A stretch of 64,000 nt of DNA, taken from the NCBI RefSeq assembly GCF_910592395.1, contig NC_088315.1, forward strand, positions 13,931,808-13,995,807, in the 5' to 3' direction. The stretch's first letter is position 1. Each line of letters begins with the position of its first letter. The notes beneath the pieces are model-generated. The model ran no database searches and was not told the origin of the DNA. It was given only the letters and a program-made list of their open reading frames with translations. Made by a program: the position numbers and the translations under genes. This DNA is from Lineus longissimus (taxonomy: Eukaryota > Nemertea > Pilidiophora > Heteronemertea > Lineidae). Positions 15,399 to 63,434 of this stretch are shown here, one piece after another.

Positions 15399-16414
15399 GA
15401 CAGTGAGGTGTCAATTTCTACTCTAAAACATATCAAATTAAATATCGGATATTGTGGTTTTAAATGCTTTTGAATGGTTCCACATTTTGCACAAATCCAA
15501 GCTGTTATGGTTGTCTCACCCAAACCTCTGTGGTGAAAACGAGGCTATATACATTAGCCATTATGAAAATGAAATATTCTCACTCGGGTGTTTTAGAATA
15601 TCCAACTAATGGTTAAGGTGAGACACGCATTTTAACTTATGCCTCTCGAGTTAACCACAAACTGAAATTCCTTGAACTTATTGGTCCAACTGACTCACCC
15701 AGGGAATCGTTGGATTCTAAGATAGCCTGTCATTTGGACAATATCCATCAGGTATTATACATGCACTGTTTTTCTCTACGGAATACGTCCATCTGCTCTT
15801 GTTCCCCACTGAACCCCGTCAAATCATGTTTTAAGTGTAGTGTAAGAATGATAGATTTATTATCATGATCAGAGCTGTCATATTACAAGTGGGGCTGCAT
15901 GTATAGTGATGCTTTGAAAAATGTAATGTCTATGCTGTGAAATTATCTATTGATGCATTGGAAAGTTTAATGTTCACTGTGCATTGAGGTACTGCATGTG
16001 TCACAGCAATGCACGAAGACAGTGTACCCTGTCAACATATTGCAATGCGATGTGTCAATTTTGTCAATTTGTACAAATCATATTCTTTAATCAATAGATC
16101 CAACTTTAAGAATTTGAGCCCAACTTTTTTTAGCCTACCTATCTCAAACATGTTTTTAGTCGAATTGAAAAAGGTAGATACACGAAACTTCGTTATCTCA
16201 TTTTGGGAGTGTCCAGACAATGCCAGTTGTATCAACTTAAAGGCATTAATAACCTATTTGTAGCACAATATTTTGAACTACAATTGTACTACCACAGGAA
16301 GTTTGTCTATTGGTATAAAATAATTCTAATTTAGACACTTTAGATACCATTCTTAAAAAGTAGTGCAACAATATCCCTTTTTGGAAAACATTTTCATTTG
16401 ACTTGGGTTTTACT

Positions 16415-18043
16415 AGAGTCTTTAAAAAAGAGAGTCAGGCAACTAGGGACCATATGGCTTCAACAGCAAAACCGCCGCCTAATTCGGAAGACGCGCGTTG
16501 TGACAGAGCTCTCTCGGGTCACGTGGTACACCCAGGCCAATTTCGCACAACTGGACTTTGAACAAATCTTTGATCAGCTGAACATGGCCATTACAAACAA
16601 CCCGTTTTAAAGCAAACGCCTGCTTCAAAGTAACTGATCTCTATACAACTATTTAGATATAATTATATGACAAGTGATATGCTTCGCATTTTGCTTTACG
16701 ACAGTTTGAGGAGAAGGGATGGCACTGGTTTGAACATAAATTTTCGGAAAGCGTTTTTCTACTCCACATTATCACATATTTTTGTGGTCGGCAGTTTAGT
16801 ATGTTGTCGGTGCTGAATGGACCATCTTAAGGTATTACATTGTTCCATTTTGGTTGTCGTCTAATTGGATATTCATATCTTATTAATTTTGACCAACTGC
16901 AACCAGTTTGATAGCAGGTTTAATTTCGCGATCGCGGTAAAAAACGAAAAAAACATGAAAAAATGCAAAACGTCTCGTTTTTTGTGGTTAGGTGTTCACA
17001 TGTTAAGAAATCGCATTTATGTCTATTGATATTATTCTAATTTAATGAAGCTGTTATTTAATGGGATATTTTATAGTTTTGTGATTAGGAGCCCAGTTTC
17101 TAGTTTATTTAGATAAGAAAACGGTTCATTTTCTCATTTCTTTGCAATTTGTTATAAAAATCCATAATTATGTTGTAATCAATGGCAACATATACTGTAA
17201 ATTGTTTCTCATGAGGTGACTCAAAAATTGATGTGCACATCATAAATGTTTGTAAGGTTTAAGCATATTTGCGTGTTCAACAATATTGGACAGTATACTC
17301 ACACCACTTTGCGCTTGTGTGCCAAAATAAGCTCATCGATGGGAAAATGAACCGTTTTCTAATCTATTCCAAATCACCAAATTATCAAATATCCCAGCTT
17401 ATATAACAGCTTCATTAAATTAGAATACTGTCAATAGACATAAAATGCAATTTCTTAACATGTGAACACCTAACCACAAAAAACGAGACGTTTTGCATTT
17501 TTTCATGTTTTTTTCGTTTTTTACCGCGATCGCGAAATTAAACCTGCTATCAAACTAGTTGCAGTTGGTCAAAATTAATAAGATATGAATATCCAATTAG
17601 ACGACAACAAATGGAACCATGTGATATCTTAAGATGGTCCATTCAGCGCCGACAACATACTAAACTGCCGACCACAAAAATATGTGATGATGTGGAGTAG
17701 AAAAACGCTTTCCAAAAATTTATGTTCAAATCAGTGCCATCCCTTCTCCTCAAAACTGTCGAAAAGCAAAATGCGAAGCATATCACTTGTCATATAATTA
17801 TATCTAAATAGTTGTATAGAGATCAGTTACTTTGAAGCAGGCGTTTGCTTTTAAATTGGTTGTTTGTAACGGCTATGTTCAGCTGATAGAAGATTTGTTC
17901 AAAGTCCAGTTGTGCAGAATTGGCTTGGTTGTACCACGTGACCCGAGAGAGCTCTGTCCCAACGCGTGTCATCCGAAACGGGCGGCGTCTTTGATGTTGA
18001 AGCCATACGTTCCCGAGTTGCCTGACTCTTTATTTAAAAGACA
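16415..18043. mobile_element. 1.6-kb foldback element with arms of about 700 bp
   Basis: The left arm (16415 to about 17135) is the reverse complement of the right arm (about 17342-18043) with few mismatches. A loop of roughly 200 bp lies between. The tips resemble each other (AGAGTC..TTAAA..AGAGTCAGG and its complement). A third, internally deleted copy is at 43348-43963. Each arm holds a short frame reading inward from the tip, with TRV.TELSRVTWY.QAN and QLDFEQIF.QLN; it stays open in all three copies. No catalytic transposase domain is present. Confidence 0.85.
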
Positions 18044-33300: not shown

Positions 33301-36300
33301 TTAATAAGATCAACCCAAATTGATTCGTAGAGCATTGGCTTTTTCTCTACAAACAAAATCAGATTTTCTTTCATGTCTACTGTTGCCATATTGACCTCTT
33401 GGACGTGTCTCGCCGACGCAAAGAAAGAGAAATGCCTCTGCATGGCTTACAAACTATTATTAGGCGGTATAACGAACATTCTGATTGGTAACCGTGCGGG
33501 TAATCGCATTAAAATCAGTCTGAAAGTGATTTCCAGCGATGATCGTAGCGGCTGACGTAATTTGACTGAATCGCACTGTACTGGTGGAAACTGTTATTGG
33601 GTAATCCATGAAAGTGATCCTCTGCGACCGTCGCAACGACAAACGGATCGCAAATCACTGCGATAACCGCGTTCGGTGGAAACAGCCCTTTAATCCGTGA
33701 AAGTGATCCTATGCGACCGCCACAACGACAAACGGATCGCAAATCGCTGCGATAACCGCGTTCGGTGGAAACAGCCCTTTAATCCATGAAAGTGATCCTC
33801 TGCGACCGCCACAACGACAAACGGATCGCAAATCGCTGCGATAACCGCGTTCGGTGGAAACAGCCCTTTAATCCATGAAAGTGATCCTCTGCGACCGCCA
33901 CAACGACAAACGGATCGCAAATCGCTGCGATAACCGCGTTCGGTGGAAACAGCCCTTTAATCCATGAAAGTGATCCTCTGCGACCGCCACAGCGACAAAC
34001 GGATCGCAAATCGCTGCGATAACCGCGTTCGGTGGAAACAGCCCTGCATGCTGATTTCTATTTTGTCCATTCGGGGAATGTTTGGTTGCGTTTATTATTT
34101 CAGGACGGATGTAGAGCACTGGATTAACGACTTCCAGCTATTGCTTTCGGATCCGATCAAGCGGAAAACTAGGTTTTAGAAGGCAATAAGTGGGACATTA
34201 TCTGGCGCATGCGTATTTGCAGTCTGTCTATATTCGCGTGGAATGAGACTTGCAAAATAAAAATTTCGGATATCATTAATTCTATATTTGTTGTCGATTG
34301 TTATTTAGCTTGGTTTTTATAGTTTTTTGCTTTGTTTGAAAAGTGCCAAAACAAGCTATGTGTTGACGTGATTTCAGCATTTTTTTGTGCGAATTGCGAA
34401 CATTATCATGTCTATGAGATAGTTCTCCTGTATTTCAGCGTTTTCGCCTCACCATACACTGCAATGCGATTCACTATGTCATGCGGTTGGAGCCTATTCC
34501 AAAATACACGTTGTCAGCGGTAGTTTTGGCAGAAGGAATGTAATGTGTTTCATATCAGAGCATTTTAGCTAGATGATAATATCAATGCTTGTATTTAGGA
34601 ATTTTTAAATTTCGGCCAGATGCCATTTGCCACTGCACAACCTTGTGCAATGGGCATCAAAATCACATTATACAGATCACGTATAGATTAGATTTTTAAT
34701 CCATATTATTACAGATTAATCACTAACATTGCTCGTTCATTCCCTAGGGCATAGATTCGTACAAGAACTTATATCTGTGTACACAGAATCCGTCATCAAA
34801 GTTCAACAGTTCTATTTCAAACGCAAGGACCAGCCAGACGACCACATCGCTAATTCTATGAAGATCATGAAGAATACATCGGAGCTGCATAAAACTGTCA
34901 TTGTGCTGTGTAGTAATTACAATGTCATACATATCTTACATCAGGTGAGTATCCCTAATTATAAATCTCGTTGGGAATAACGGCAAAATGCAATCAATTT
35001 GTAGGATCAACTTTGCCCATTTGTCACATGATTATAATGATGTGAAGTATTTCATCCCACACCCATGCAGTTATCAGTAGGGTTTTGCACTCATTTGACC
35101 TTTGACCTTAAATATTTTAATCATGGAGGTCATAAATCGCCTGAGCCAACGGGTGATTATGTCCATTTGCAATTCGTGGAACAAACTTGGCGTCTTGGTC
35201 GGCCGATTATGCCACCTATCAAACCAGAATTTACATGTAATCAAGTGAGTGTGCGACACGCAGTCTATCGAAATGTAATTTCATCCATTACAGGCGCAAA
35301 TAGCGGGACTTCTTCGACAAAACTTCTTCTGGATCATTGTTGGAAGAAACATATCAACTGATGAGGTCGGTGCGTATTCGCCCAGTGATAGCAACGTTGC
35401 ATTTATCCACGAGCACTATACCATTGTGCCAGATACCGAGTCCATGAGAGAAGGCGAGCATCTTCCAGTCCACAATGTAAGTTGAAACGGGAAAAAAGCA
35501 TTCCGCGAAGTTACTATTTATAGCTCACAAGGTCATTTGAATAAGATATTGATGACGTTTTAGTCACGTGACAGTCGGACATCGACACTTATTTCTACGC
35601 ATTTGAGCTTATTTCAAAGTCAATTATCTTTGACCCTGCATTGTTTTTAGCATGAATGATACCATAGAGTCAGAGAGAGAAATATTCAGAACAATTATGT
35701 AGTATTTCCAACACTCGGACATGTGCCAGATTGAATCTAACTGCCCTAGCTAGAAAGCCTGAATCCATTACGAAACCGCATGTTTGTCCGACATTGCCTG
35801 TAATTCAGCGATGGGGAAATAGAGGGCAGCAGCTGCAGTGACCTCATCATCGCGGAATGCTATTGGATCGAGAAACTCAGTCGAGTGTTATACGGAAAAC
35901 GAGTAACGCTAATGGAATACCGTGGATATATATCGGAGGTGAATTCGGGCAGAGAAGTGGATGAAATCATCAGAACCACCCTGGAGAATCAATTCACCAC
36001 ATTGCCGATCATCTTATCAGGCGTTCCATCTTGCCGAGCTTGCCTGTCCTGGGAAAGGACATTTTATTTAATAAAGTTAGAAAAACTATGTTCGGTGTTT
36101 CAACCGAATATTGTTGTGTTTATCTGGTAATGTATGTTGTGTTAATTCGGGAAGATCAGTGGCGTAGTGGTTAGAGCACCGGGCGCATAATCAGGAGGTC
36201 GTGGGTTCGATTCTCGGAAGGGGTTTCATCTTTGTGTACTTGAGAAAGGCAGAGCAACCTGCCCTAAACACGCTAAACGCAACGTCAAAGCAATGTTGTG

Positions 36301-42300: not shown

Positions 42301-45300
42301 GGCGGGCATTGCCAGGAATGACGAAAATCTATAGGGAGATATGACGAAACGCCTCCCTCACATGAACGTCTTTGGCCCAGAGAAAATTACGAAATCTCAG
42401 ATGAGGTACGATATTCTCATATCGAGGTACCTAACATCGCTTCATTGAACGCACCAGTCCACTCAATTCAATCACTAAAAACCGTATATCAACCTATTAT
42501 ACACTCGTCTTTCTCCCACCTCAGGTGCAATGGCTTTGCCGACGAGGCACTCCGGTCGGGTTGTCGTCGCCTTTTATTGGTTCTTCACAATTATCACCTT
42601 TGCCACATACACTGCTGACCTTGTCGCCTTCCTGACTGTACCGTACGTCCCCCCACCTATCCGAACGTTAGATGAACTCAGTCAACAAGACGAAATCAGG
42701 CCAATATGCAAGGAGGGCTCTAACCTGTACTACCTGTTCAAGGTTTGTATCAAATAGTCTTGCAGAGTGTACGCCCGAGACACGTCCACTGTCTCTCCAC
42801 TAAGTAGCCATGATTGTATCACTAAGGGAGAGTCCAACACACAGCAAACACGATTCTGATCATCCATTCATGGGTTGAAGGAGCAGCCCAATTCCATGTG
42901 TTCTGTATATAATGTTGCGACGTTGATCTGCGCAAAGATGTTATTTTTGCAAAATCTTATAAATCGGATCTGAGACCCTTATTGTAAGCATCCAACATAC
43001 ATGTATTACATTTTTCATATACACTGTGATACCAGAGTATTTCAAATAAAGAGTCAGGTCACGACAGTTTTTCTTTGATACCACCGCTCTCTCGGGAAAT
43101 TGACTGGAAGCCATAATTATGATGAAGCCATTTTAATGCAGCTACAAACTCAGCTGAGGTGCAAAACAATGATGGAACGACCAGAATTCAATGAAAAATA
43201 CTTTCTCTGCACCTGAGGTACACATATGAATACAGATACATACAGCGTAAATTATATTGATGAGAACGATCCAAGAATTTAGGCAGATGCGTTGATTAGC
43301 TGCTAATTGCCAAACATAACAATGATCAAACCACAATTAGGCTGCATGCACTCTCATCTGTTTGCAATTTGTTATAAAAAAACCATAATTAGGTTGTTAT
43401 CAATGGCAACATATACTGTAAATTGTTTCTGATGAGGTGACTCAAAAATTGATGTACACATCATAAATGTTTGTAAGGTTTAAGCCAAATTGCGTGTTCA
43501 ACAATATTGGACAGTATACCTCACACCACTTTGCGCTTGTGTGTCAAAATAAGCTCATCGATGGGAAAATGAACCGTTTTCTAATCTAAATAAACTAGAA
43601 ACTGGGCTTCCAAATCACCAAACTATCAAATATCCATCACTTCTCCTCAAAACTGTCGAAAAACAAAATGCGAAACATATCACTTTTCATATAAATGTTA
43701 TCTTTGACATTATATCTAAATAGTTTTATAGAGATCAGTGCCTTAAAGCAGGGGTTCGCTTTAAAACGGGTTGTTTGTAACGGCCATGTTCAGCTGATAG
43801 AAGAATTGTTCAAAGTCCAGTTGTATGGAATTGGCTTGGATGTACCACGTGACCCGAGAGAGCTTTGTCCCAACCCGCGTCATCAGAAATGGGCAGCGGC
43901 TTTGATGTTGAAGCCATACATTCCCTAGTTGCCTGACTCTTTATTTGAAAGACTCTGATAATACTAAGTATGTCGCAATTATTTTCATGAATCGGTAATT
44001 GACAAATTGAGTGATCAACGCATGAATATCTGGTCGTCTCCCAGATTTTACCTCAAATACCGCGCTTGAAAGCGATGGACCTTAATCATTAAACCAAAAG
44101 ACGAATAAAGTTCATTCAAGAATCGGTGTTTTTGATTGAAGGGAACCGTCGATCAGGCAGGTTTTGTAATTCTAGGTACGAAGGACGAAGTCTTTTTTAA
44201 TTCGTTTTATCGAAGGTGTGTTTGAAGTATTCCTTGATTCCTTGTGCTGCTTTGAAAGCTGATTTACGAGTGTGGTGTCAATGAATGCGAGCAGGACGTT
44301 GTTCATGAACAGATATTTTTGTACTTCGTCTTTGGTAATGATTGCGAAACCTGCGTACTACCAAGCACCATTTTAAACGAAGTACGCTCATTCGTCAAAT
44401 TCGCTAGGAACTTTAACCCGACATTAAGTATTGGAATTTTGTTTGTTTTTAACAGGACGCGGAAGGAGGTGCTTACAAACGAGTTTGGGAAATGATGGCG
44501 GGTAACCCAACCGTCCTCGGCAATGAAGAGGGCACTAAATTAGTTAATGAGACAGGTGCATGGGCGTTCATGACTGATTACACTCAGCTAGAATACGTCT
44601 ACAACAGGGATTGCGAAAACTACGTCCTTGCTGATGAGATATTTAACGTGGCTGGCTATGGGTTTGTTCTCCCAAAAGATTCCCCAATAAACACGGTGTT
44701 CTCTGCAAGGTTGGTATGACTATGATGTTTACTTAAAGGAGCGCTTAGAGTTTGGGGTTTAATAATATTGTAATCACCAAAGTCAACAGCAACGGACACC
44801 TTCTTTACGCTCTCGTTCCAGTTGTAAGAGACCTCGATCACAAAAGATAAAACTGGTGTTGAATATTCTTTTGTGCAAACTGGTCTATAGGGAATGTCTG
44901 AAAACCGAGTCGGTGTTGGTCGACGTTGCTATCAGTGGCATGTTGATTTCGTGCTTCTTCCGATATTGCGTCTGGTCAGTTAGGCCCGGATAGTTAGGAA
45001 CCTTACATACCATGCAGTCGAATAAACCTGACGGTGAAAATTGGAAGTTTTTGCAATCAATGAGCGTTTTGGGATGATTTACGTCCGTCATGTTGTAGTC
45101 GGCCATGTTGTAGTAGGCGTAAAACAATCGGAAAGAATCCTTTGACGGAACGCTGCTGTCCGGGTTTAGGGCAGGTAAAAAGCATCTTTCTTGTCCGAAA
45201 TATTTCTGAAAACGACTTGCCAAATTATGTTATGGTGACCTCATCCAAGACACGGGGTGGATGAACCAAGAAACTATAGAGCATTGGCTTGATGAAGTGT

Positions 45301-47447
45301 TTCGTGCCCATGTGGAGGCAGAAAACAGTGAGCAGTTCCTTATTCTCGAGGACAGATATCGGGTGCATATAGGACTGGAATGTTTGGACATGCAGTGACA
45401 GAAATGAGTGGAATTATTGATTTCATTCCAGCCGGGTGTACATCTATCGCTCAACCAATGGATGTAACCGTAATGAAGTCATTTACGTCAGATGATAAGA
45501 AACAATGGAAGAACTGGAAGTGCAAACACAGCTAATGATGGACAATGTCCTAAAATCGCGTATACGAGTGCTCATTGTTTGTTTCATAAAGCAGACCAGT
45601 ATGGTTGGTTATTTCCGCATAAATAGAGGTTGTCTCAAATATGCATTTTATGTGGTGTTATGACTCGAATAGACGTTTGGTGGCGCTCGTTTTAACGGAG
45701 ACGTACCTGAAATAAACATGGGCCAAATTCATAAAGGGCGTTTAAGGGTTAGACGTGTGTAACTTCTCCCTGATCAGTTTCAGGGCCTATTCATATTTTG
45801 CGAAGATTTACATGAAGGACCAGAATATGTCTATTCAGTAGTTAAACGCTGTTTTAAGCTAATCGCCCTTTATGAATTTGGCCCATTGTGTCTTATCTCA
45901 AATAGACATACACTCAAATAGACGTTTGGTGATGCTCTCAAATAGATATATATTGTCGTGTTTTCAGCTTTTTGTTAATAACTCGAATAGACGTTTGGTG
46001 GCGCTTTTCCGCAAAAATTGAAGTTCCCCAAATAGACGTTGTGTGGCGCTGGAATCAATTTTAACGACGGCAACAGCGATATTGACAGTATCATTGCGGT
46101 AAGCGGCGGTATTTCATGTATTGCATGTAAATTTGATGTACTTATGTATTGTCAGGAAATGCAGACAGCTAAATACACTGACAATCCAATTACAATTAAA
46201 ATGAAATGATATTTAGCCTCGATTTTCCTTAGATACGCGCGCAAATAGCCATGTGCACTGCTTAGAGCAATAACAATAATATCGTCGTTGCAGATAAACC
46301 AATTCCAAACTTGCTCCAGAATTGCCGCGCGCCAGCGCCACACAACGTCTAAATGGGGAACTTCCATTTTTGCGGAAAAGCGACACCAAACGTCTATTTA
46401 AATAGAGGTTGTCTCAAATAGACATTTTATGTCGTGTTATGACTCAAATAGACGTTTAGTAGCGCTCGTTTTAACGGAGACGTACCTGAAACAAACAGTC
46501 TATTTGAGTTATTGACATAAAGCTGAAAACACGACAATATATGTTTATTTTAGATACGAGCGCCTCCAAACGTCTATTTGAGTGTATGTCTATTTGAAAA
46601 GCGACACCAAACGTCTATTTGAGTTATTAACAAAAAGCTGAAAACACGACAATATATGTTTATTTGAGATACGAGCGCCACCAAACGTCTATTTGAGTGT
46701 ATGTCTATTTGAGATACGACACAATATGTTTATTTCAGGTACGTCTCCGTTAAAACGAGCGCCACCAAACGTCTATTCGAGTCATAAAATGTCTATGCGA
46801 GACAACCTCTTTTTATGCGGTAATAACCGCCCATAGACCAGGCCGCGCTAATTCATGCGTGGCACGCCAATTCAAACCATCTTTCGGCCGCCCGTTGATC
46901 ACATCCCGAGGAAGGTGTTCCAATCAGGAATCATGAAGAGTGATCGTATTATTTTGGATGAATAATGAAGCAACCTACGTGGGCGGAGTCATGGTGTCTG
47001 AGGACCGGGACTGGAGTAATTTGAAGTTGTTATAGCTATTATATTTGGTGATCATCACTGAGTAATAATAATCCTGTTCCACTCGTACTCCGCACATGTA
47101 ACAATTCTGTAAAAATAAATATATTGCAAGCCGACATTTATCTTTTCAGCATCGTAGCGATGCAAGAAGCAGGGGTAATTCAACGTTGGAAGAAGAAGTG
47201 GTGGTCAACTCAATCCGGAGCCGAATGCATCGTGTCAACGTCAAGCAGCACAGCACAGCCACTTGGGCTAGAGAGTTGTGCAGGGGCTTTTGTGGTTCTT
47301 GCAGCTTCAACGGCATTGTCATCACTGGTCCTTGTCATTGAGCTGGTGTTTAGGCGATGCACCAAAGCTTGCAGACGAAAATATGAACTCCGAGATACTA
47401 CACCTAGCAGCAAAAGAGTCGCTGGAAATAATAACGATCAAGCTTAG
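24258..47447 (+). CDS. ionotropic glutamate receptor, 13 exons, complete (853 aa)
   Basis: A ligand-gated cation channel subunit of the plasma membrane. Exons: 24258-24336, 25284-25427, 30197-30466, 34748-34944, 35294-35476, 36598-36771, 38070-38291, 39620-39726, 40463-40553, 41384-41708, 42525-42742, 44456-44709, 47150-47447. All junctions are GT-AG and phases agree, giving 2562 nt with one terminal stop. Domain order: signal peptide; amino-terminal domain (exons 2-7); S1 (exons 8-10); M1 (exon 10); pore loop (exons 10-11); M3 (exon 11); S2 (exons 11-13); M4 (exon 13). Length is usual for non-NMDA or epsilon-type iGluRs. The ligand Arg (ITHIRET) is kept. The pore Q/R site is His, and the M3 motif is TYTADLVAFL. 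S2 has Asp where AMPA receptors have Glu705. Subclass is unresolved; Epsilon-like is possible. Expression is untested. Confidence 0.93.
25284..25427 (+). CDS. iGluR gene 1, exon 2 (start of amino-terminal domain)
   Basis: Acceptor TTTTCAG and donor GTTAGT, phase 1 in and 1 out. The exon begins GILYDGNEESMEN, the usual first strand and helix of an iGluR amino-terminal domain. Confidence 0.88.
25715..27285 (+). mobile_element. degenerate pogo-like transposon in iGluR intron 2
   Basis: Inverted ends of about 85 bp, at about 25718-25802 and 27197-27284, share GATAAGCGAACGGCCCACAA. The insertion site is visible: the repeat it interrupts (CTTACATA ... CATATTCCATTTAG) is uninterrupted in the copy at 28832-28860. 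It carries the broken transposase at 26011-27049. Confidence 0.8.
26011..27049 (+). pseudogene. pogo-family transposase, inactivated
   Basis: Reading + from ATG 26011 gives a psq-type HTH (RRHRSYSLAEKIRLLDDYEN ... AQFAREHN ... LREEDDLR), broken by TAA at 26059 and TGA at 26212. A donor GTGAGT lies at 26303. A CENP-B-like segment follows at about 26450-26560 (REWMATRRQQG ... AEQSFRTWW), also with a stop. An acceptor precedes 26607, where the second half of a DDE_1 domain begins: LLIWDMFPAHRN, then GRCTSLVQPFDKTVIRSFK, then an acidic tail to TAA at 27047. The part with the first catalytic Asp is missing, so the element cannot self-mobilise. Confidence 0.85.
27600..28660 (-). pseudogene. CR1/L2-like LINE reverse transcriptase relic
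   Basis: On the minus strand, about 28440-28300 encodes GIGCHVGNIFCGECAYADDV, containing the RT active-site YADD box. The frame then shifts and resumes (YASKSRFLIFG, then 28164-27622 with AWHKCIRQVLCLPYRTHNDL), the post-catalytic region of CR1/L2-type ORF2. 5' RT motifs and the endonuclease are missing, so the copy is 5'-truncated and frameshifted. It lies antisense in iGluR intron 2. Confidence 0.8.
28700..28890 (+). repeat. second copy of the repeat at 25570-25710
   Basis: Both copies share GGTGTAGTCATG, ACACGGGAGTCGTGAAGC and AAATGGATTCATGTGTAATG in the same order. The two flank the pogo and LINE relics and probably were ends or internal repeats of a larger element. TCCGTAATGCGGAGGTGTCC near 29022-29041 and CTAATGCGGACACC near 25500 look like its decayed inverted termini, in the style of Tigger/pogo ends. 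Confidence 0.6.
30197..30466 (+). CDS. iGluR gene 1, exon 3
   Basis: Acceptor TTTCAG, donor GTATGT, phase 1 in and 1 out. It continues the amino-terminal domain (ACKLLKNNVTAMISVTSSCE ... MTIFFDDTT). It is equivalent in place and phase to 59665-59916 of gene 2. Confidence 0.9.
31087..31513. mobile_element. 427-bp MITE in iGluR intron 3
   Basis: Inverted ends of about 60 bp. The left begins GGTAGTATGTAAATGTTGAA and the right is its complement, ending TTCAACATTTACATACTACC. Both arms repeat GAGCCAAA/CCAAACTAAACG motifs. It is non-coding. Confidence 0.85.
32240..32965. mobile_element. foldback element in iGluR intron 3
   Basis: Two nested inverted pairs are readable. The outer pair is about 32240-32312 against 32885-32960 (CAGCAAATCCACG and GAACAGGAAATATTCGCGG in the right arm). 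The inner pair is about 32420-32545 against 32600-32700, with GTAACCATAGCGGACAGTCTGCC at the inner right. It is non-coding. Confidence 0.7.
33602..34045. repeat. 89-bp minisatellite, five units
   Basis: Five head-to-tail units (starts near 33602, 33691, 33780, 33869, 33958) differ at only a few bases. Each unit contains GCGACCGCCACAACGACAAA and GCTGCGATAACCGCGTTCGG and is GC-rich and CpG-rich compared with the intron around it. Open frames on the minus strand come from the repeat; 89 is not a multiple of 3, so it is not a repeated protein domain. Confidence 0.93.
34748..34944 (+). CDS. iGluR gene 1, exon 4
   Basis: Acceptor CCCTAG, donor GTGAGT, phase 1 in and 0 out. It encodes FVQELISVYTESVIKVQQFY and LHKTVIVLCSNYNVIHILHQ, part of the amino-terminal domain. 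The phase change from 1 to 0 is shared with the corresponding exon of gene 2. Confidence 0.9.
35294..35476 (+). CDS. iGluR gene 1, exon 5
   Basis: Acceptor ATTACAG, donor GTAAGT, phase 0 in and out, 61 codons. It includes QNFFWIIVGRNIS, the amino-terminal-domain core strand. Exon 5 of gene 2 (62844-63026) is also exactly 61 codons. A MITE begins only about 20 bp after the donor. Confidence 0.92.
35497..35865 (+). mobile_element. 370-bp MITE family, copy 2
   Basis: Ends AGCATTCCGCGA and TCGCGGAATGCT; the body matches copies 1 and 3. It sits about 20 bp downstream of the exon 5 donor of iGluR gene 1. Confidence 0.88.
36150..36222 (+). repeat. tRNA-derived sequence (SINE head or tRNA pseudogene)
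   Basis: It has an A box (TGGCGTAGTGG) and a B box (GGTTCGATTCT) with tRNA-like spacing, and CAT at the anticodon position. The acceptor stem does not pair, and no CCA or clear 3' terminator follows. A tRNA-derived SINE head, or a decayed tRNA, fits better than a working tRNA-Met. Confidence 0.55.
36598..36771 (+). CDS. iGluR gene 1, exon 6
   Basis: Acceptor CTCCCAG, donor GTAAGG, phase 0 in and out, 58 codons. It encodes VADAISTLAFYYQTIMKCNG and a stretch with N-glycosylation-type sites (NGST, NVT, NMT). It is the helix-rich part of the amino-terminal domain. Confidence 0.9.
38070..38291 (+). CDS. iGluR gene 1, exon 7 (end of amino-terminal domain)
   Basis: Acceptor GTTGCAG, donor GTGAGA, phase 0 in and out. 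It contains DFKGYTGVVRFSAGGYRENI, the F.G.TG.V.F...G.R pattern typical of the C-terminal lobe. It ends at KRELIVATRE, the linker into S1. Confidence 0.92.
39620..39726 (+). CDS. iGluR gene 1, exon 8 (S1 start)
   Basis: Phase 0 in, 2 out. It contains EPPFVQF and GFCVDILDELAKQYNF, the opening motifs of ligand-binding half S1. Confidence 0.94.
40025..40192 (+). mobile_element. 170-bp MITE, copy A (before exon 9)
   Basis: The left end CCGGTGTGACAGCGGATATA is the inverted counterpart of the right end TACTATCC.TTGCACACC. It is nearly identical to 41171-41338, in the same orientation. It lies in intron 8. Confidence 0.85.
40463..40553 (+). CDS. iGluR gene 1, exon 9 (S1)
   Basis: Phase 2 in, 0 out. 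It encodes YKMVESIDGKWGAP and GSWNGLIGMVIRG, the strand-turn of S1 before the agonist Arg. This small exon is bracketed by two direct MITE copies. Confidence 0.93.
41171..41338 (+). mobile_element. 170-bp MITE, copy B (after exon 9)
   Basis: It has the same inverted ends (CCGGTGTGACAGCGG and TTGCACACCGG) as copy A and only scattered differences. It ends about 45 bp before exon 10. Confidence 0.87.
41384..41708 (+). CDS. iGluR gene 1, exon 10 (agonist Arg, M1, pore-loop start)
   Basis: Phase 0 in, 1 out. ADMAIGPFTITHIRETVIDF holds the conserved Pro, Thr and Arg that bind the ligand amino and carboxyl groups. M1 is FHWTIWSAIAGAVLMTGLGV. SIWTAYRILIHQ begins the re-entrant pore loop and ends at the Q/R site, which is His here. 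Confidence 0.95.
42525..42742 (+). CDS. iGluR gene 1, exon 11 (pore exit, M3, S2 start)
   Basis: Phase 1 in, 0 out. PTRHSGRVVVAFYWFFTIIT leads into M3 with TYTADLVAFLTV. It then has PPIRTLDELSQQ, the usual S2 opening, and KEGSNLYYLFK. The last is the GST-loop position of AMPA receptors, with Asn for Thr. Confidence 0.95.
43036..43963. mobile_element. third copy of the 16.4-kb foldback family, internally deleted
   Basis: 43348-43963 matches the loop and right arm of the element at 16415-18043, lacking the segment corresponding to about 17400-17745. A decayed left tip (TTTCAAATAAAGAGTCAGG) stands near 43036. It lies in iGluR intron 11. Confidence 0.8.
44456..44709 (+). CDS. iGluR gene 1, exon 12 (S2)
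   Basis: Phase 0 in, 2 out. WAFMTDYTQLEYVYNRDCEN carries the acidic ligand-contact residue (Asp) and the first Cys of the S2 disulfide. NVAGYGFVLPKDSPI is the usual S2 hinge motif. Donor GTTGGT was chosen over GTATGA five bases further because only it joins exon 13 in frame. Confidence 0.92.
45235..45545 (+). pseudogene. pogo/DDE_1 transposase relic
   Basis: GWMNQETIEHWLDEVFRAHV, then FLILEDRYRVH in one frame, then (after a frameshift) FIPAGCTSIAQPMDVTVMKS. This is the hallmark order of pogo-family DDE_1 domains around the second catalytic Asp. The Asp lies next to an extra Glu in LEDRYRVH. It is broken and partial. Confidence 0.8.
45600..46834. mobile_element. 1.2-kb foldback element with 6-bp target duplication
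   Basis: The left tip (TATGGTTGGTTATTTCCGCA) is the inverted counterpart of the right tip (TGCGGTAATAACCGCCCATA). GACCAG stands on both sides. The related locus at 10630 has one GACCAG and no insert, giving the empty site. The inside is built of many inverted copies of AAATAGACGTTTGGTGGCGC. It is non-coding. Confidence 0.85.
45719..45885. mobile_element. 167-bp MITE nested in the foldback element
   Basis: Perfect 22-bp inverted ends: TGGGCCAAATTCATAAAGGG at the left and CCCTTTATGAATTTGGCCCA at the right. The complementary arm at about 46725-46750 lacks it, showing it inserted later. Confidence 0.88.
47150..47447 (+). CDS. iGluR gene 1, exon 13 (S2 end, M4, tail)
   Basis: Phase 2 in, stop TAG. 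It contains MQEAGVIQRWKKKWW (conserved S2 end), the second disulfide Cys (GAEC), M4 (FVVLAASTALSSLVLVIELV) and a short basic tail (RRCTKACRRKYELRD). The tail is about 35 residues and ends NNNDQA; I see no PDZ-type C-terminus. Confidence 0.93.
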
Positions 47448-48233: not shown

Positions 48234-48237
48234 TGCT

Positions 48238-48668
48238 GAGACAAGACCACTAATGAATATTCATAGGTTGGAGGGTCCAGGCCTATCTATTAGACGAGTG
48301 CATGTTTTTTACTCTCAAGTACATATTTGGAGAGGTATTGAAAAAATATTTGCTGTGGCAAGTCTACAGATATAAATAAATTGTTTGGTAAAAAAAATAA
48401 TTTTGAATTTTGACAACCTGGCCATAGGGGGGTGGTTCAAATTTGGAGTGAAAATGGCCGAAATGGGTAAAAATGTCCACTTGTGTCAAACTTGTCAATT
48501 TTAAAAAAAATTTCCGTGGTCAATCACCAATTTCCATCGCACCAGTTACTCGCAAGACTAACACGTATATCATATCCGAATTTCAGTTTCACTACCTGAC
48601 GCATTCTTTGATGGCGGGCATTTTAAATAACTGGAAATGGCTTGGAAAATCAATTGTGGTCTTGTCTC
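48238..48668 (+). repeat. terminal module, left copy (431 bp)
   Basis: Perfect 13-bp inverted ends. It has about 63-69 bp (near 48272-48340) that the right copy lacks; elsewhere the two differ almost only by one G in a G-run. The immediate inner flank is TATT. Confidence 0.9.
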
Positions 48669-48956
48669 TATTTAGAGGGTTTTGGGTTACAGGTCAAAAA
48701 TAGTAAATGAGCTCTGAAATCCACAAAAACCGTTTGAATTGGCTGAAATGTGTTGAGAATGTGTGGACATATCATTGAAATTGGAAAATGTGGAAAAAAA
48801 GAAAATTCTCAAATTTAACCCCCCCCCCCCTGTCCTACAGGGCTTTTAAGTGAAAATGCCAAAAATTGAAATTTTCAAAAAATTTCAAATAATTTCAAAT
48901 TTTTCTACTTTTTTGGGCTAGATATGTTTCATAACAATCATCAATTGTGAATAGTA

Positions 48957-49550
48957 ATGAAAGTGTTGATTGTTTTGCATGTTATTTTCATTTTGGGAGG
49001 TGTCGGGCACAGAGCACGCTGGGTGGCAGGGTACCAAGCTTTCATTAATTTTTTTATTTCAGCAGGTGAATTCAAGAGAAAAGTATCTGAATTACGAGCG
49101 AGAATATTAGCAAAGACAAAAAGTAATGGTTTTTGTTTGAATTGGGAGGGGGCTAAACAAAAAAAGAGGGGGGTAACATACGGGTTTGTTAAAGTAAGTT
49201 TTTTGGATAAGCCGGTCACAATGACGGCACACCGGGCAATGTTTTTGTGTGACCATGATGAATTGAAATTCAAAACTGGCGCAGGTTATCATATAAGTCA
49301 TCTTTGTCATAATCCTCTGTGCGTGAAAGTCGAGCACTTGACAATAGAAAGAGGAAGGGTCAATCAAAGTAGAAAAAGGTGCAATGCCAAGAAAGTCTGT
49401 GCAGGCCATGGCAACCGCCCTAAATGCATTTTTCCTGGTAAGCTATATGTTGAAGTTGAAAGAAAATATCATTATATTGAATTGACATTTGAAAGTTTTC
49501 TTACCGCGATGGCAACCTCTTGGATGTCTTGGTGGCTGGTTGGATCTTGA
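48957..49550 (+). CDS. His-Me finger (I-PpoI-type, zinc-bound HNH) endonuclease ORF
   Basis: Predicted DNA-cutting nuclease. Residues 113-157 hold ISHLCHNPLC, EHL, VNQSRKRC, then C..GHGNRPKC. This gives catalytic-type His115 and Asn136, with two zinc sites: Cys60/Cys117/Cys122/His127 and Cys142/Cys148/His151/Cys157. This is the order seen in the zinc-binding loop family of homing endonucleases (zf-His_Me_endon). The ORF of 197 codons may not be the true gene: a strong acceptor (TTTATTTCAG, about 49062) and donor (GTAAGC, 49438) bracket the domain. An exon of about 125 codons in a spliced gene is therefore plausible. Possible later + exons are at about 51992-52045 and 52159-52275. Its 3' end overlaps the transposase by 50 bp. 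Confidence 0.7.
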   Translation: MKVLIVLHVIFILGGVGHRARWVAGYQAFINFFISAGEFKRKVSELRARILAKTKSNGFCLNWEGAKQKKRGVTYGFVKVSFLDKPVTMTAHRAMFLCDHDELKFKTGAGYHISHLCHNPLCVKVEHLTIERGRVNQSRKRCNAKKVCAGHGNRPKCIFPGKLYVEVERKYHYIELTFESFLTAMATSWMSWWLVGS

Positions 49551-51702
49551 AGGATCGCCGAAAGTAGGAGTGGTCGTAGTTTCTGCTGTTTGGGTCGAGA
49601 CATTTCCACTCTGGTACAGGCGGTCTGTCTCGTCGTGCAACAGCCTTCTTGACAGCCTTCCTTCGCAAGTCCGGCATTGTTATCATCACATGTTTCTTGT
49701 AGTCACCACCCCTGGTTTTGTTTTTCTTTTTCTTGAAGTAATCTGTTGCCCTGATGTTTTTCAAAACACCAGCTAACTTCTGGTGTCTAGCACTCCGTTG
49801 GTACCTGACTGTGTACTGCCTGTTCATTGCAATTCTGTCCAGCGCTTTCATTGGGCGGCAACAAGTATCGACTTCGATGTTGAACCACTTTAGTTTCCGT
49901 CGCCCGCTCTCGGCTATGTTATGGTTCATTCTGTGGGCTGCTGAATGGATACGAGGGGTTGAGTTCCTGCTCCTGGTCACAATCTTAGGATCGCTGGCCG
50001 ACAGACCTCGATTCTTGGACTCAACCCCCTGGGTTGTCACGCCAAGACTCAGCTGTCGCAACGCTCCTTTACTAAGGCATACCTCCAAAACGAGATGTAC
50101 CAAGTTCTTGTCAATCACTGTCATTTTAAACTTGGGAATCTCACCGTAAGATGACCATCGTGTTGATTTGTGCCACCAAGAACCAGTTGTGCCTGAGCAC
50201 AGTGAGAATTCGTTCTGTGGACAACCAGTGCAGTCACCACCATAACAGTTCACAACACAGGCAACAGTGTCATACAGGTATCCCATGATCCTGTCGAGAT
50301 CACCGTTGCAGCGCTTGAATAGAGATTGCAAAATCTTGGATGACCTTACCCTAAGATCATTCAGAAACGTTGTTTTTAACAGTGTTCTCTCCTCAGCAGT
50401 ACGTCCCGGGAACATACCTTTACTGAATTCAGCTCTATGTCCTGCACGCGTCTGGGCTTGATGCAAATGTATAGAGTCAAGTTGATGCTTCACCGTGAAC
50501 AAGCCGCCGAAGAGCTTTTTTGTTGCATCAGTTAACCCTTTGAATGAACTGGAATCACCATCTGTAGTCAAATGTTCTACATGTAGGCCCTGTTTCTCAA
50601 AAGTCTCGGCAAATGCAACCCCAAGATCATATTCTCTGAATGCATCTGCTTCAGGAAAGTTAGCCGTGCACTTCGAGTGTCGTTCATCAACGTTTGTGCC
50701 AGTGGCACCACATTTAACTTCAAAACCTTTCGCCCGCATTGCAGCCCCTATCCAGCAGAGTTTTGTTTTAACCTCAATGTCAATGATTTTGTGTTCATCT
50801 GTCACATTTTCAACACATAATCCAGTCATTGTGCTCGCACAACGGCCCATCTTGTTCCTCGAAGTGAGGTGTAAACTATTATAGCGTCCATCAGCTTGGA
50901 CATTGATTCCTGTGTCGTCCTGATTTCTTAGGCGCAGTATCCTTTTCAAGTTCTCTCGTATGTCTGCCATATCGGCCACATTCATTTTAACTGTTTCATC
51001 ACCAACCTTATTTGCCTGCTTTTGCATGATACTCCTACAGGGGGGCGGGATTCCCATCATGCTCAGTATGTAACTCATACTCTCGTTGCCAATCATTGTG
51101 TCCTGCAACGCAATCTGTAATGCAACATTTGGAAGAGCGGCTTTTCGTCCGCGCTTGCCAGTGTCTATGTCCTCAAAAAGTTTATACAATTTCGAATAAA
51201 AACCACAGTTTTTACACACAACAGTGACTGAACAACACACCCCCTGCTTACGTACCTCTCCATATTTGAATATCGGCTGACAGTTCACGTGATATTCGCT
51301 ATGGGCCCTGTTAACGTCGTTGAGCACATCCATCAGTTTGGTTGTCTGAACAACGAAACTCTCGTGATCATGCTCCATGGTCTCATCTGGTATCTCCATC
51401 TCATCATCAGTGTCTTCTTTCATGTTCAGCCGTAGTAAGTTGACATTCTTGGCAGTACGGTTATTGATATCCGGTATGTGTCTTTTGCCGTCGTGTCCCA
51501 TCGTTGTGACCTGTCCGTACTCCTGGGGCGTGAGTCGTCTCCATGCGGGTTGTAGGCCTACTTCTCGTTCGTCGTCGCTCACCACCTCGACACCTCCACT
51601 CCGCACGTGTCCGCTCTTGAACATTGTTCTCATTGCTGCATTCGATGCCCTAGGGCACCTCGGACCCCGTTTTCCTATCAATCTCCTCGCCTTTGTCCTC
51701 AT
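49501..51702 (-). CDS. Mutator-like transposase (733 aa, intact)
   Basis: Predicted DDE transposase that would cut and join the element's ends in the nucleus. An N-terminal basic and acidic segment (1-110) precedes a Cys cluster (C141, C156-C157, CKNC at 163-166). The catalytic fold follows: QADGRYNS (D271), LTTDGDSSSFKG (D381) and VESKNRGLSA (E561). FTVKHQLDSIHLHQAQ and a C..C..C insert (486-494, 502) lie between. A Lys/Arg-rich tail ends the protein. The pattern fits the Mutator-like transposase domain common in invertebrate predicted proteins. The frame is uninterrupted over 2.2 kb, unlike every other transposase here, suggesting recent selection or arrival. The start is the first Met of the frame; an earlier spliced exon is possible. 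Confidence 0.85.
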   Translation of the reverse strand: MRTKARRLIGKRGPRCPRASNAAMRTMFKSGHVRSGGVEVVSDDEREVGLQPAWRRLTPQEYGQVTTMGHDGKRHIPDINNRTAKNVNLLRLNMKEDTDDEMEIPDETMEHDHESFVVQTTKLMDVLNDVNRAHSEYHVNCQPIFKYGEVRKQGVCCSVTVVCKNCGFYSKLYKLFEDIDTGKRGRKAALPNVALQIALQDTMIGNESMSYILSMMGIPPPCRSIMQKQANKVGDETVKMNVADMADIRENLKRILRLRNQDDTGINVQADGRYNSLHLTSRNKMGRCASTMTGLCVENVTDEHKIIDIEVKTKLCWIGAAMRAKGFEVKCGATGTNVDERHSKCTANFPEADAFREYDLGVAFAETFEKQGLHVEHLTTDGDSSSFKGLTDATKKLFGGLFTVKHQLDSIHLHQAQTRAGHRAEFSKGMFPGRTAEERTLLKTTFLNDLRVRSSKILQSLFKRCNGDLDRIMGYLYDTVACVVNCYGGDCTGCPQNEFSLCSGTTGSWWHKSTRWSSYGEIPKFKMTVIDKNLVHLVLEVCLSKGALRQLSLGVTTQGVESKNRGLSASDPKIVTRSRNSTPRIHSAAHRMNHNIAESGRRKLKWFNIEVDTCCRPMKALDRIAMNRQYTVRYQRSARHQKLAGVLKNIRATDYFKKKKNKTRGGDYKKHVMITMPDLRRKAVKKAVARRDRPPVPEWKCLDPNSRNYDHSYFRRSFKIQPATKTSKRLPSR

Positions 51703-52158
51703 CTTGTCTTGTCTTTTCGTAACTTGTCTCTCTTTGCTTAAAATCGTACTCCTAGGAGATGTCTATTTCGGGATGCTTCCTTCAACAGACTGAAAATACA
51801 CAAGAAAGGACAAGAGATTACAAAAGGGTGGATGTTGATAGGACAATAGCAATGACAATGGTTGCTGTTGTGGAAGTGTCAGACTTGGATGTGACAGACA
51901 AGGAGATAACATATGGGTTAATCTTTTTCTCATTTCACACCTTACTAACAAGCTTTCCATGCTTATAATGCATCATATATTTGTTGTTTTTCAAATTTCA
52001 GACAAAGTTAATATTGTTCGATTTGAAATTTTGACATTTTCAGCATGATACGACTGTCACAACCTTGGAACATCCTTTAAAAAGACAACTTTTTTCCAAA
52101 AAATTGAAATTTTTGAATATTTGTCATGAATTAAAATTGTTTCAAATTCCTATTTCAG

Positions 52159-52275
52159 ATTGACTGTAGACCACTGGTGATTTGTCGAAGATTCGGTACC
52201 ATTCGATTAAGAATTCTACGAGTTAATGAGCTTAACTTGAAGACAGTCTGTAAACAATTTGAAGACGAAATATAA
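52159..52275 (+). CDS. possible small 3' exon within the 4.55-kb unit
   Basis: After a pyrimidine tract and CAG (52156-52158), a 38-codon frame (IDCRPLVICRRFGTIRLRIL ... FEDEI) ends in TAA. It could be a last exon of the + strand nuclease gene, but its phase does not match the donor at 49438, so another exon would be needed between. Weak support. Confidence 0.2.
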   Translation: MDCRPLVICRRFGTIRLRILRVNELNLKTVCKQFEDEI

Positions 52276-52429
52276 GGTAGGTTGTCCGTATCGGACAACA
52301 TTTTAAAACGTTAATAGCTCGCTCAAATCAAGTTCATTTTTGATGAAACTTGGTTATGTTAGTCAAGACATCTCAAATGCTTGGGAAAAGGCATATTTCA
52401 TTGATATCTCAAGATTATCCCTCTTCATT

Positions 52430-52791
52430 GAGACAAGACCACTAATGAATATTCATAGGTTGAAAAAATATTTGCTGTGGCAAGTCTACAGATATAAATA
52501 AATTGTTTGGTAAAAAAAATAATTTTGAATTTTGACAACCTGGCCATAGGGGGGGTGGTTCAAATTTGGAGTGAAAATGGCCGAAATGGGTAAAAATGTC
52601 CACTTGTGTCAAACTTGTCAATTTTAAAAAAAATTTCCGTGGTCAATCACCAATTTCCATCGCACCAGTTACTCGCAAGACTAACACGTATATCATATCC
52701 GAATTTCAGTTTCACTACCTGACGCATTCTTTGATGGCGGGCATTTTAAATAACTGGAAATGGCTTGGAAAATCAATTGTGGTCTTGTCTC
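52430..52791 (+). repeat. terminal module, right copy (362 bp)
   Basis: It has the same 13-bp inverted ends as the left module and lacks the internal segment of about 63-69 bp. The inner flank is CATT and the outer flank TGCT. Confidence 0.9.
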
Positions 52792-53029
52792 TGCTAATAT
52801 GAGCTGGATTTCAAAATAACTTCATAGGGTTTGCCCTTTTAATCTTCTCTAGACAACACAAAACATATTCACTTGTATCCTAAAACGCTACACTTGCCGA
52901 GATATCAGATCGCTGATAGAGATATTCAGTGGCATCACGCTGTTGTAACCATTGTCATGATTGTGTGTACAGCGATGTCGTTTATGAGTGAGTAATAGCC
53001 GATTAACTTCAGCTTGAAATAGATTGCAT

Positions 53030-53786: not shown

Positions 53787-54776
53787 ATGAGGATGTCTTC
53801 AAACCACATCACAGAAATTTATCAAAGAAAATCACTTACTCTGCTGGACCAAATACTAGAATTCGCCCAAAGCTACGTCACAATTATCATCGTTTTTCTA
53901 GGACTTTTCGGTAACGGACTCTCTCTCACTGTGTTCGTACGCTGTAGGAAGAGGCGAGATGCCAGTGTACAGTATTTAAGCTGCTTGGCTATCTCAGATT
54001 CGGCATATTTATTGGGGAATATGATCTTAGTGTGGCCCCAGCAGGGAATGCAATTCATTGTTGACTACACGCCAGTTGACATCATGAGAATCTCCACGTT
54101 ATCATGCAAATTATCTAATTACCTCCTCATGATAGCTGGATGCATGTCTTCATGGCTAATTGCGGCATACTCGATAGAGCGTGTAATAGTTGTTTGGTGT
54201 CCATTAAAAAGAGTCCACATCACATCACGTAAACGTGTAACTGTCATCGCAGTACTGTTCGTCACATCAGCTCTGACTAGTCTTCACCGGCCAATGTTAC
54301 AAAATATTTATTTCGATCACGGCATGACAATATGCTACTATATAGGTGGCGCCACAATGCAATTGGTTCTGTCACAGGTAGATTGGGTTTTGTATTTCTA
54401 TATACCATGCCTCGTCATTATTGTGGCCAACATCGCCATTCTCGTCGGAATTTTCCAAGGTTCGCGTAAACGTTCAACGTCCCAGGCAATGCCATCGCAT
54501 AAGGGAACATCTGATACGAAGGTTTGGTTGAGTCTCATGGTCGTTTCCACAACATACATCGTGCTCATGACGCCAAGTGCTTTTCTTTGGTTACTTTACG
54601 TTATTATGGCAAACTCAAACTCGACGCCACAATTTATGAATCTACTGGTAAAAGCTGCGGGATTCGGTAGCTTTATCAGTCTGTGTAATTTCAGCTTAAA
54701 CTTCATTATCTATGGCTTGACACTGCCTTTTTACCGGGAAGATATATATCGCATGTTCCGTTGCTCCAAAAAATAG
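53787..54776 (+). CDS. class A (rhodopsin-like) GPCR, single exon, 329 aa
   Basis: Seven-helix plasma-membrane receptor that would signal through G proteins. TM1 has GNGLSL (Asn43). TM2 has LSCLAISDS (the LAxxD position). TM3 starts after Cys107 and ends SIERVIVV, with ERV in place of DRY (Glu131-Arg132). Extracellular loop 2 has a partner Cys (MTICYYI). TM6 has MTPSAFLWLL without the full CWxP. TM7 has NFSLNFIIY in place of NPxxY, followed by helix-8-like FYREDIYRMF. The N-terminus is short with no clear signal peptide. The pattern resembles the expanded invertebrate peptide-receptor-like group (FMRFamide/TRH-receptor-like); ligand unknown. The ATG used is the first in the frame near TM1; Met3 is an alternative. 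Confidence 0.9.
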   Translation: MRMSSNHITEIYQRKSLTLLDQILEFAQSYVTIIIVFLGLFGNGLSLTVFVRCRKRRDASVQYLSCLAISDSAYLLGNMILVWPQQGMQFIVDYTPVDIMRISTLSCKLSNYLLMIAGCMSSWLIAAYSIERVIVVWCPLKRVHITSRKRVTVIAVLFVTSALTSLHRPMLQNIYFDHGMTICYYIGGATMQLVLSQVDWVLYFYIPCLVIIVANIAILVGIFQGSRKRSTSQAMPSHKGTSDTKVWLSLMVVSTTYIVLMTPSAFLWLLYVIMANSNSTPQFMNLLVKAAGFGSFISLCNFSLNFIIYGLTLPFYREDIYRMFRCSKK

Positions 54777-60500: not shown

Positions 60501-63434
60501 TCGATATGCTTAGATCTGATCGTGCCAAGGGGCGTCCGCCCTTTGACGATGGTCATTGACACCTACTTACACATTTTAGCACCTGTCCATGACATTTTAA
60601 CAAAAATATCTAGAAATTGTTCCAATAGAAATTTCGGTCATTATCCTCATACACAATTAAATCATCACGCACTTTTTAGTAAGTAACTCACCTAGGACAG
60701 TAAATGGTCCCCGGAAGACTAGTTACAGTGAATGATATAACTTTCGTTACAGGAGGTAACGTCCTATTACCAGCAGAAGATTCAGCCCAAAGTCCGGACA
60801 TGTATCTCTACAAGATTCCATCTAAGCCGGCCGACATCTCAACGCTGCTGGAGAGGGTTATGACAGAAACCACTGCAAACGATTACATTATCATGGCCAA
60901 TAAGGACACTGTGGACGAAATCCTGTCAAAGGTAACCAAGAGAAAATGTATGGTTTTCATAATGGGTTTGTTGCAAATCGGGGGGGGGGACTATCGGCAG
61001 GCGCTACACTCTCAAAATTTATTGGTAAAAACAGAGTCTTTGCAAGACTTTGGTAAAAACAGCTAGTTTGGTCGTTCCTTTTGCACCACCTGTGAAATTA
61101 GTAAAACCTAACCATAAATTAGCTGTTCAAACTAAAAATAGAAGTGAAAACTACCATTAAAATGGTTAAGAATTATTATGTTGATAGTTAAAACTACTTC
61201 TTTCACAGTCGGTGCAATAGCAACTACCAGAGTAGTAAAAAAATACAATTAGATAGTTTTTTTGCTATTTAATTTTAAAAGTGTAGGAGGTTTCGTTGGT
61301 TGTCCTCAGGTGAATGATGTGCACAGTTCGGGACTTTGTTGTTTTAATTAATCAAGTGATTGATATATTCCTCGTACAAGCCTGAACAGTGTCTACGTTC
61401 TGTGACATAGGAGACACCCCTGTTGGCGACTTAGTAATCTCGCCTACGTGGCTCCTGCCTGTTAGTCTCCATTTAACGTCATAAGTTTAATAGCATTCCG
61501 CGAAGTTACTATTTATAGATCACAAGGTCATTTGCATAAGATATTTATGACGTTTTAGTCACGTGACAGTCGGACATCGACACTTATTTCTACGCATTTG
61601 AGCTTATTTCAAAGTCAATTATCTTTGACCCTGCATTGTTTTTAGCATGAATGATACCATAGAGTCAGAGAGAGAAATATTCAGAACAATTATGTAGTAT
61701 TTCCAACACTCGGACATGTGCCAGATTGAATCTAACTGCCCTAGTTAGAAAGCCTGAATCCATTACGAAACCGCATGTTTGTCTGTAACTTTGCCTGTAA
61801 TTCAGCGATGGGGAAATAGAGGGCAGCAGCTGCAAAGACCTCATCATCGCGGAATGCTATTGCTGGTGACACCAAAATACTCAATACATTGACACTGGCG
61901 CTAATATATCTTGTGTCCAAAGTTGCTACATCACATGTTGTTCAACCGGTCACAACAGGCCATTTATTCTGAAACGTGGACTGATGATGGAGCTAAAAAC
62001 TACATTGGAGGCTACTAATTGATAACGTTTCGTGTCAAACAACCACGCCTTTCTCTTGGTTCTGGATTATACTGCATAGAAGTGACATTTCAGAACAAGA
62101 AAAAACAGTCCTATTGGCAGTCTCTGATCCGCAACCACCCTGGAATAGAACCGATCAATAGAATTGAACCGGATCTAGCACAACGCAAATTATGCCCTTA
62201 AATTTGTCACTGAAACAAGAGAACGGATTAGGACTGTCAGCCATGGTCTAACTTATGTATGGTTAAACACGACCACTGAGCTTTTAATCACATAGAAATC
62301 TTAAAAGCCGATAACTCATTACAAAATCTAATAACTAGCCAAAATGTAGACTTTCCGGTTGGTACCGGTGTAAAAGGAATAGACGTCCTAGGAATGCAGG
62401 ACCCCATACAATAGCTGTGTATTGTCAACGAATGTGGTTTATGGTTTGGTTAGGGTTAGCTACATAATCTTCAACAAAGGAACTCGGCGACTCTATTCAC
62501 TTTAACAAAATAACCGGACTTAGATTCCGGGGACTTGCATTTCTTTTACACCGGGACCAGACACATGTTATTCAGTTCACTTGGTGTTGAAGCACCTTAA
62601 ACGTTGAGAGTTGTAAACCCATTCTATGTTGGCCTGTACCGAATTTGGTGTTGTAGGTATATATTCCCTTGATATCTTCCCTAGTGGTAAATACAATGTA
62701 CTTGTATTATAGCATCTACATGTACTCTCTCAATTACATTGCGTATATCTTGTACCCAAGAATAGCTTCAGCTGGTGTTTAAACTAGCACCTTCCTGCTG
62801 AAGGTGCTGTCAACTCGTTACAGTAAATTGTTCACTTTTCAAGGCTTCCGATCTTTCGATGATGAGTTCGTTGTATCGTTGGTTCATAGTATCACGAGAC
62901 CTAGAGAGTTTGTCTTGTAGCAAGTGTTCTGCCGGGAACGTTGTCCATATCCACCATTCAATAACAGATTATTCGACTGTGGCGGCTATCACTGGGCTGA
63001 CAGGCGTACCAAACGACCATCGAAAGGTAACTAGGCCTCTATTTAAATACGTTCTTCCTTGACTTATTTTCAAATATACGTCGATTTAAATCTTAAATAC
63101 CATTGTGACAACGCCGAGAACATGGTGAAGAACGTTAAAAAGCAGTCACACATGCAGAATGACTGCTCGTTCAGTGAACCAGTACAGAGTACAGAGTATA
63201 GAGTCCAACACCGGTGAATGTTCATGAAAGAGTTTTGATAACTTTGCCGTATTCTTCTTTCTTTAGCTTGATGCTATATATTCCTATGAGGCGGTTAAAG
63301 TCATGAGTCAAACCATCAACAAAATGATCACGGCGGGCACGTGGACTACTGGAGATCCATCACTTAAATGTTACCAGGCTACAAGTATAGTCGATCCTGT
63401 TCGTTTCAACATCTACAGAGACGAACTCAAGAAG
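57372..63434 (+). CDS. second ionotropic glutamate receptor gene, 5' part (runs off window)
   Basis: Five exons of an amino-terminal domain: 57372-57527, 59665-59916, 60753-60931, 62844-63026 and 63267-63434. Their phases (1-1, 1-1, 1-0, 0-0, 0-0) equal those of exons 2-6 of gene 1, and the fourth is 61 codons in both. Shared features include NVTAM/NFNWSG strands, IIIMHDDS against MTIFFDD, YIIMANKD against VIVLCSNY, and RWFIVSRDL against FWIIVGRNI. Exon 1 is not found, and the ligand-binding and pore parts lie beyond 64000. The 'complete' state is therefore unknown, but no internal stop is seen. Confidence 0.85.
58731..59542 (-). mobile_element. mariner-like relic in iGluR gene 2 intron
   Basis: The ends TACCGGGTGGCTCAAAA and TTTTTTGCCACCCGATA are inverted and flanked by TA. 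Minus-strand reading gives QDGAPFRTSHATQ and, in another frame, LNPMDYTMF, the marks of a mariner DD(D/E) domain. Several stops and frameshifts and the loss of the N-terminus make it inactive. Confidence 0.85.
59665..59916 (+). CDS. iGluR gene 2, exon 3
   Basis: Phase 1 in and out. It encodes VVDATANGNSCILANLAQYL ... PFISISGRRC ... DSIIIMHDDSF, an amino-terminal-domain segment equivalent to exon 3 of gene 1. Confidence 0.85.
60753..60931 (+). CDS. iGluR gene 2, exon 4
   Basis: Phase 1 in, 0 out. It contains DISTLLERVMTETTANDYII, MANKDTVDEILSK. Equivalent to exon 4 of gene 1. Confidence 0.85.
61489..61861 (+). mobile_element. 370-bp MITE family, copy 3
   Basis: Ends AATAGCATTCCGCGA and TCGCGGAATGCTATT, body as in copies 1 and 2. 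It lies in an intron of iGluR gene 2. Confidence 0.88.
62365..62554 (+). mobile_element. 190-bp MITE, copy 2
   Basis: Starts CCGGTGTAAAAGGAATAGAC and ends TTCTTTTACACCGG. Same family and orientation as 54934-55125. It lies about 290 bp before exon 5 of iGluR gene 2. Confidence 0.88.
62844..63026 (+). CDS. iGluR gene 2, exon 5
   Basis: Phase 0 in and out, 61 codons, the same size as in gene 1. It encodes SLYRWFIVSRDLE and NVVHIHHSITDYSTVAAITG. Confidence 0.85.
63267..63434 (+). CDS. iGluR gene 2, exon 6
   Basis: Phase 0 in and out, 56 codons (58 in gene 1). It encodes LDAIYSYEAVKVMSQTINKM. It is the last exon visible; donor GTAGAC follows. Confidence 0.8.

Follow-up and report, generated by a model that had tools for sequence, protein, structure and literature searches.

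KolobokP is a lineage of the Kolobok superfamily of animal DNA transposons described by Kojima and Bao (2022; Mobile DNA 13:24; PMC9587614). Its defining layout is a pair of long terminal direct repeats (LTDRs) that enclose an internal region (INT) encoding both a homing-type nuclease and a transposase; the arrangement is reported for 228 families in seven phyla. In that account, each LTDR carries short terminal inverted repeats (TIRs; 11–18 bp in the oyster families), the termini are 5'-RR and YY-3', the target site duplication is 3–5 bp and non-TTAA, and the LTDRs are about 450 or about 660 bp long. The transposase is a DDD/E enzyme with a CCHC motif after the first D, a C/DxxH motif, and a zinc finger between C/DxxH and E, the last without counterpart in MuDR, P and hAT; in most families a His-Me finger nuclease is encoded downstream of the transposase on the complementary strand. 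Solo LTDRs and (LTDR-INT)n multimers are known, and the authors hypothesize that the nuclease induces unequal crossover and cuts the LTDR or abutted TIRs, a proposal that awaits experiment. Among open-licence PMC papers, the name 'KolobokP' was found only in PMC9587614, and a 2025 bivalve paper cites Kojima and Bao (2022) for multimerisation. The host table in PMC9587614 contains a single species of Nemertea, Lineus longissimus, the source of the DNA analyzed here: a 64-kb window (64,000 nucleotides of contig NC_088315.1; all coordinates are positions in this window) that contains a 4554-bp unit at 48238–52791.

This unit is almost certainly one monomeric, structurally intact copy of KolobokP, that is, LTDR-INT-LTDR, inserted whole with duplication of a TGCT target. 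The original prediction for the unit, made from its sequence, had described a nuclease and a Mutator-like transposase bounded by two MITE (miniature inverted-repeat transposable element) modules and had known of no described element with that pairing; the element kind is already known, having been published as KolobokP (PMC9587614), and the novelty of the transposase-nuclease pairing is not supported. The features of the unit are as follows.

48234–48237, no strand: left target site duplication, TGCT, read from the sequence
48238–48668, plus strand: left LTDR of 431 bp; relative to the transposase, which is on the minus strand, this is the element's 3' LTDR
48238–48250 and 48656–48668: TIRs of the left LTDR, 13 bp
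48268–48337, plus strand: 70 bp in the left LTDR that are absent from the right LTDR, with TTG at both edges
48669–52429, no strand: INT of 3761 bp, in one copy within the window
48957–49550, plus strand: open reading frame (ORF) for an I-PpoI-like His-Me finger/His-Cys box nuclease, 197 amino acids (PF05551, E=2.5e-13; residues)
49501–51702, minus strand: intact ORF for a DDD/E transposase, 733 amino acids (PF20700, E=9.5e-53; alignment with 14 relatives; residues; structure model)
52430–52791, plus strand: right LTDR of 362 bp, the element's 5' LTDR
52430–52442 and 52779–52791: TIRs of the right LTDR, 13 bp
52792–52795, no strand: right target site duplication, TGCT, read from the sequence

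The two LTDRs are in direct orientation and differ by no substitution over the 361 bases that align; each is bounded by the same perfect 13-bp TIR pair (GAGACAAGACCAC / GTGGTCTTGTCTC), so the near-identical direct modules and the inverted ends of the original prediction are borne out with exact coordinates. The element termini are GA...TC (RR..YY). TGCT abuts both outer ends, as had been predicted, and in this one copy the flank match stops at 4 bp, with no fifth base; given the window's own composition, the chance that random 4-mer flanks match is 0.0049. Neither inner junction reads TGCT: the left LTDR is followed by TATT and the right one preceded by CATT, and neither LTDR alone has a matching 4-bp flank pair. 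Because the outer TIRs are intact, a single target duplication serves the whole unit, and the inner junctions are not copies of TGCT, the sequence argues that the unit arrived whole; the composite-like mobile unit of the original prediction, with its paired modules, transposase and homing-type nuclease, holds. Within the window, the exact 13-bp TIR has no copies beyond the element's own, and no solo LTDRs or (LTDR-INT)n multimers are found elsewhere.

The same boundaries bear on the possibility that the composite is fortuitous, with a transposase element and a nuclease gene happening to lie between the insertions of two unrelated, non-autonomous MITEs. The TIRs are complete in each module, either of which could be mobile by itself, and solo LTDRs have been published; however, TGCT occurs at the outer ends only, the inner junctions read TATT and CATT with neither module flanked by its own 4-bp match, and PMC9587614 reports the same arrangement in 228 families from seven phyla, so we regard a fortuitous composite as exceedingly improbable. 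The 'MITE modules' of the original prediction are the lineage-defining LTDRs of KolobokP, known on their own as solo LTDRs (PMC9587614).

The transposase ORF is intact over its 733 codons, as predicted, and contains the catalytic residues D271, D383 and E561. A CCHC motif follows the first D (C316, C331, H342, C345), DxxH is located at residues 409–412 (D409, H412), and a zinc finger lies between DxxH and E561 (C486, C491, C494, C502). In the predicted structure model, the best fold match is ISCth4; a profile built from the transposase alignment retrieved nothing at E<=1 from the PDB sequences, and NCBIfam has no family for either the transposase or the nuclease. A pattern scan that detects close relatives only gave five matches in viral contigs and 27 in prokaryote genomes for the transposase, and one in viral contigs for the nuclease, none of them confirmed as a relative. 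The best named relative of the transposase is an uncharacterized Lineus longissimus protein of 450 residues (95% identity; 407 identities over 428 alignment positions) whose alignment begins at residue 292 of the 733-residue transposase. Given that this nearest named relative is from a host in the table of PMC9587614, the specific family may be catalogued already.

These residues and the element ends also address whether the unit is a true Mutator (MuDR/MULE) element. The label has a source, since PF20700 bears the name 'Mutator-like transposase'. MuDR elements generate target site duplications of 8–9 bp, but the flanks here match over 4 bp only, and the ends are RR..YY. In addition, this transposase has a zinc finger between its DxxH and E, a feature that MuDR, P and hAT lack in the account of PMC9587614. 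A true Mutator element is scarcely credible on this evidence: 'Mutator-like' stands only as a Pfam family name, and the unit agrees with Kolobok in the zinc fingers of its transposase, in its RR..YY ends and in the shortness of its target duplication.

The nuclease ORF is convergent with the transposase ORF, their 3' ends overlapping by 50 bp. The His-Me finger nuclease named in the original prediction is present with both catalytic residues (H115, N136) and all eight zinc ligands (C60, C117, C122, H127 and C142, C148, H151, C157, assigned by I-PpoI zinc-ligand numbering). The sequence match to I-PpoI is weak (E=0.022) and extends across the SHLCHN core; the nuclease has equivalents of I-PpoI S97, H98, H110, E114 and N119, residues that Kojima and Bao (2022) name (PMC9587614). 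Single-sequence structure prediction was useless for this protein (mean pLDDT 37). The first ~40 residues cross a pyrimidine-rich, splice-acceptor-like stretch ending in CAG (about 49045–49064), so the true start is uncertain and an intron is possible.

An uncertain start could be taken as a sign that the nuclease belongs to an unrelated host gene, or is a functionless relic, and lies between the LTDRs by chance, and the protein search recovered a single relative from 32 candidates, 99% identical. However, the position and orientation of the ORF are those in most KolobokP families (PMC9587614), and the ORF retains its full set of His-Cys zinc ligands, eight in all, along with the catalytic His and Asn; a host gene or relic is accordingly very unlikely.

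As a KolobokP copy, then, the unit resembles the described families in its LTDR-INT-LTDR layout, the short TIRs on each LTDR, the RR..YY ends, the 4-bp non-TTAA duplication, its overall length and its listed host taxon, as well as in its DDD/E transposase with DxxH and two zinc fingers and its downstream, opposite-strand I-PpoI-like nuclease. The one difference seen is in the right LTDR. The left LTDR (431 bp) roughly fits the KolobokP length; the right LTDR (362 bp) does not, because it has lost 70 bp. It equals the left LTDR minus positions 31–100, plus one G in a G-run; the gap site is at 52460, and the 3-bp repeat TTG flanks the missing stretch on both edges. Because both ORFs are open and the 361 shared bases contain no substitution, either the insertion or the last LTDR exchange was recent; the identity of the LTDRs is ambiguous between these two, since exchange between LTDRs would homogenise them. 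The gap may either postdate the insertion or last exchange or have been carried along.

A more specific origin of the gap is an end-joining scar left by a cut of the element's own nuclease, which would place a cleavage site within LTDR positions 31–100. The support for this consists of the otherwise unmutated LTDRs and of TTG at both edges, a repeat short enough to arise readily by chance, and we consider the idea very doubtful. If it were true, an LTDR without positions 31–100 would be resistant to further cutting, and a concrete target would have been named for the proposed homing step of KolobokP. As another candidate target we considered a 12-bp perfect palindrome (ATGAATATTCAT) at positions 16–27 of both LTDRs; when the right LTDR is shuffled by dinucleotides, a palindrome of that length turns up in 140 of 1000 cases, so we do not count it as evidence. 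The I-PpoI recognition sequence is absent from the LTDRs and INT on the strand searched.

In the working that we propose, the DDD/E transposase would likely bind the 13-bp TIRs. Pairing of the two outermost ends would move the whole unit; pairing of the two ends of one LTDR by the same transposase would let that LTDR move alone, that is, by solo LTDR excision. Following the published hypothesis of Kojima and Bao (PMC9587614), cleavage by the I-PpoI-like nuclease would probably take place at or inside LTDR sequence, or at abutted TIRs on a circle, and repair between LTDRs after the cut would restore or multiply LTDR-INT units. The partly homing-like behaviour suggested in the original prediction had likewise already been put forward, as a hypothesis, in PMC9587614.

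Two other known systems invite comparison. With I-PpoI and the His-Cys box homing endonucleases of group I introns the nuclease shares the SHLCHN core, the eight zinc ligands and the catalytic His and Asn; I-PpoI-type enzymes, however, are found in group I introns, whereas this nuclease is carried by a DNA transposon. Bacterial composite transposons and IS256-type elements are alike in their paired, independently movable ends, and the modeled transposase fold is closest to ISCth4; in contrast, the transposase here is encoded in the internal region rather than in the end modules, and the element is eukaryotic. As a find, the element is one more well-preserved KolobokP copy and has little significance beyond that; with both ORFs open and unsubstituted LTDRs, it is a reasonable source for a biochemical test of the nuclease.

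Several other features occur in the window. About 1 kb from the element is a single-exon ORF for a rhodopsin-family G protein-coupled receptor (53787–54776, plus strand; 329 amino acids; PF00001, E=9.8e-18), for which only four relatives were found (36–41% identity). The remainder are repeats. An 89-bp unit is present in five tandem copies at 33602–34045 (97% matches), and a dispersed repeat of ~295 nucleotides occurs in three copies that are 83–98% identical (6720–7014, 35494–35788 and 61489–61783). Nested long inverted repeats at 16407–18042 (arms of 290, 169 and 146 nucleotides, 91–98% complementary) are fold-back-like, and related sequence is located near 43377–43964. Finally, the stretch 45600–46990 is densely packed with nested inverted and tandem repeats (unit of 115 bp), and parts of it recur inverted near 10473–12366.
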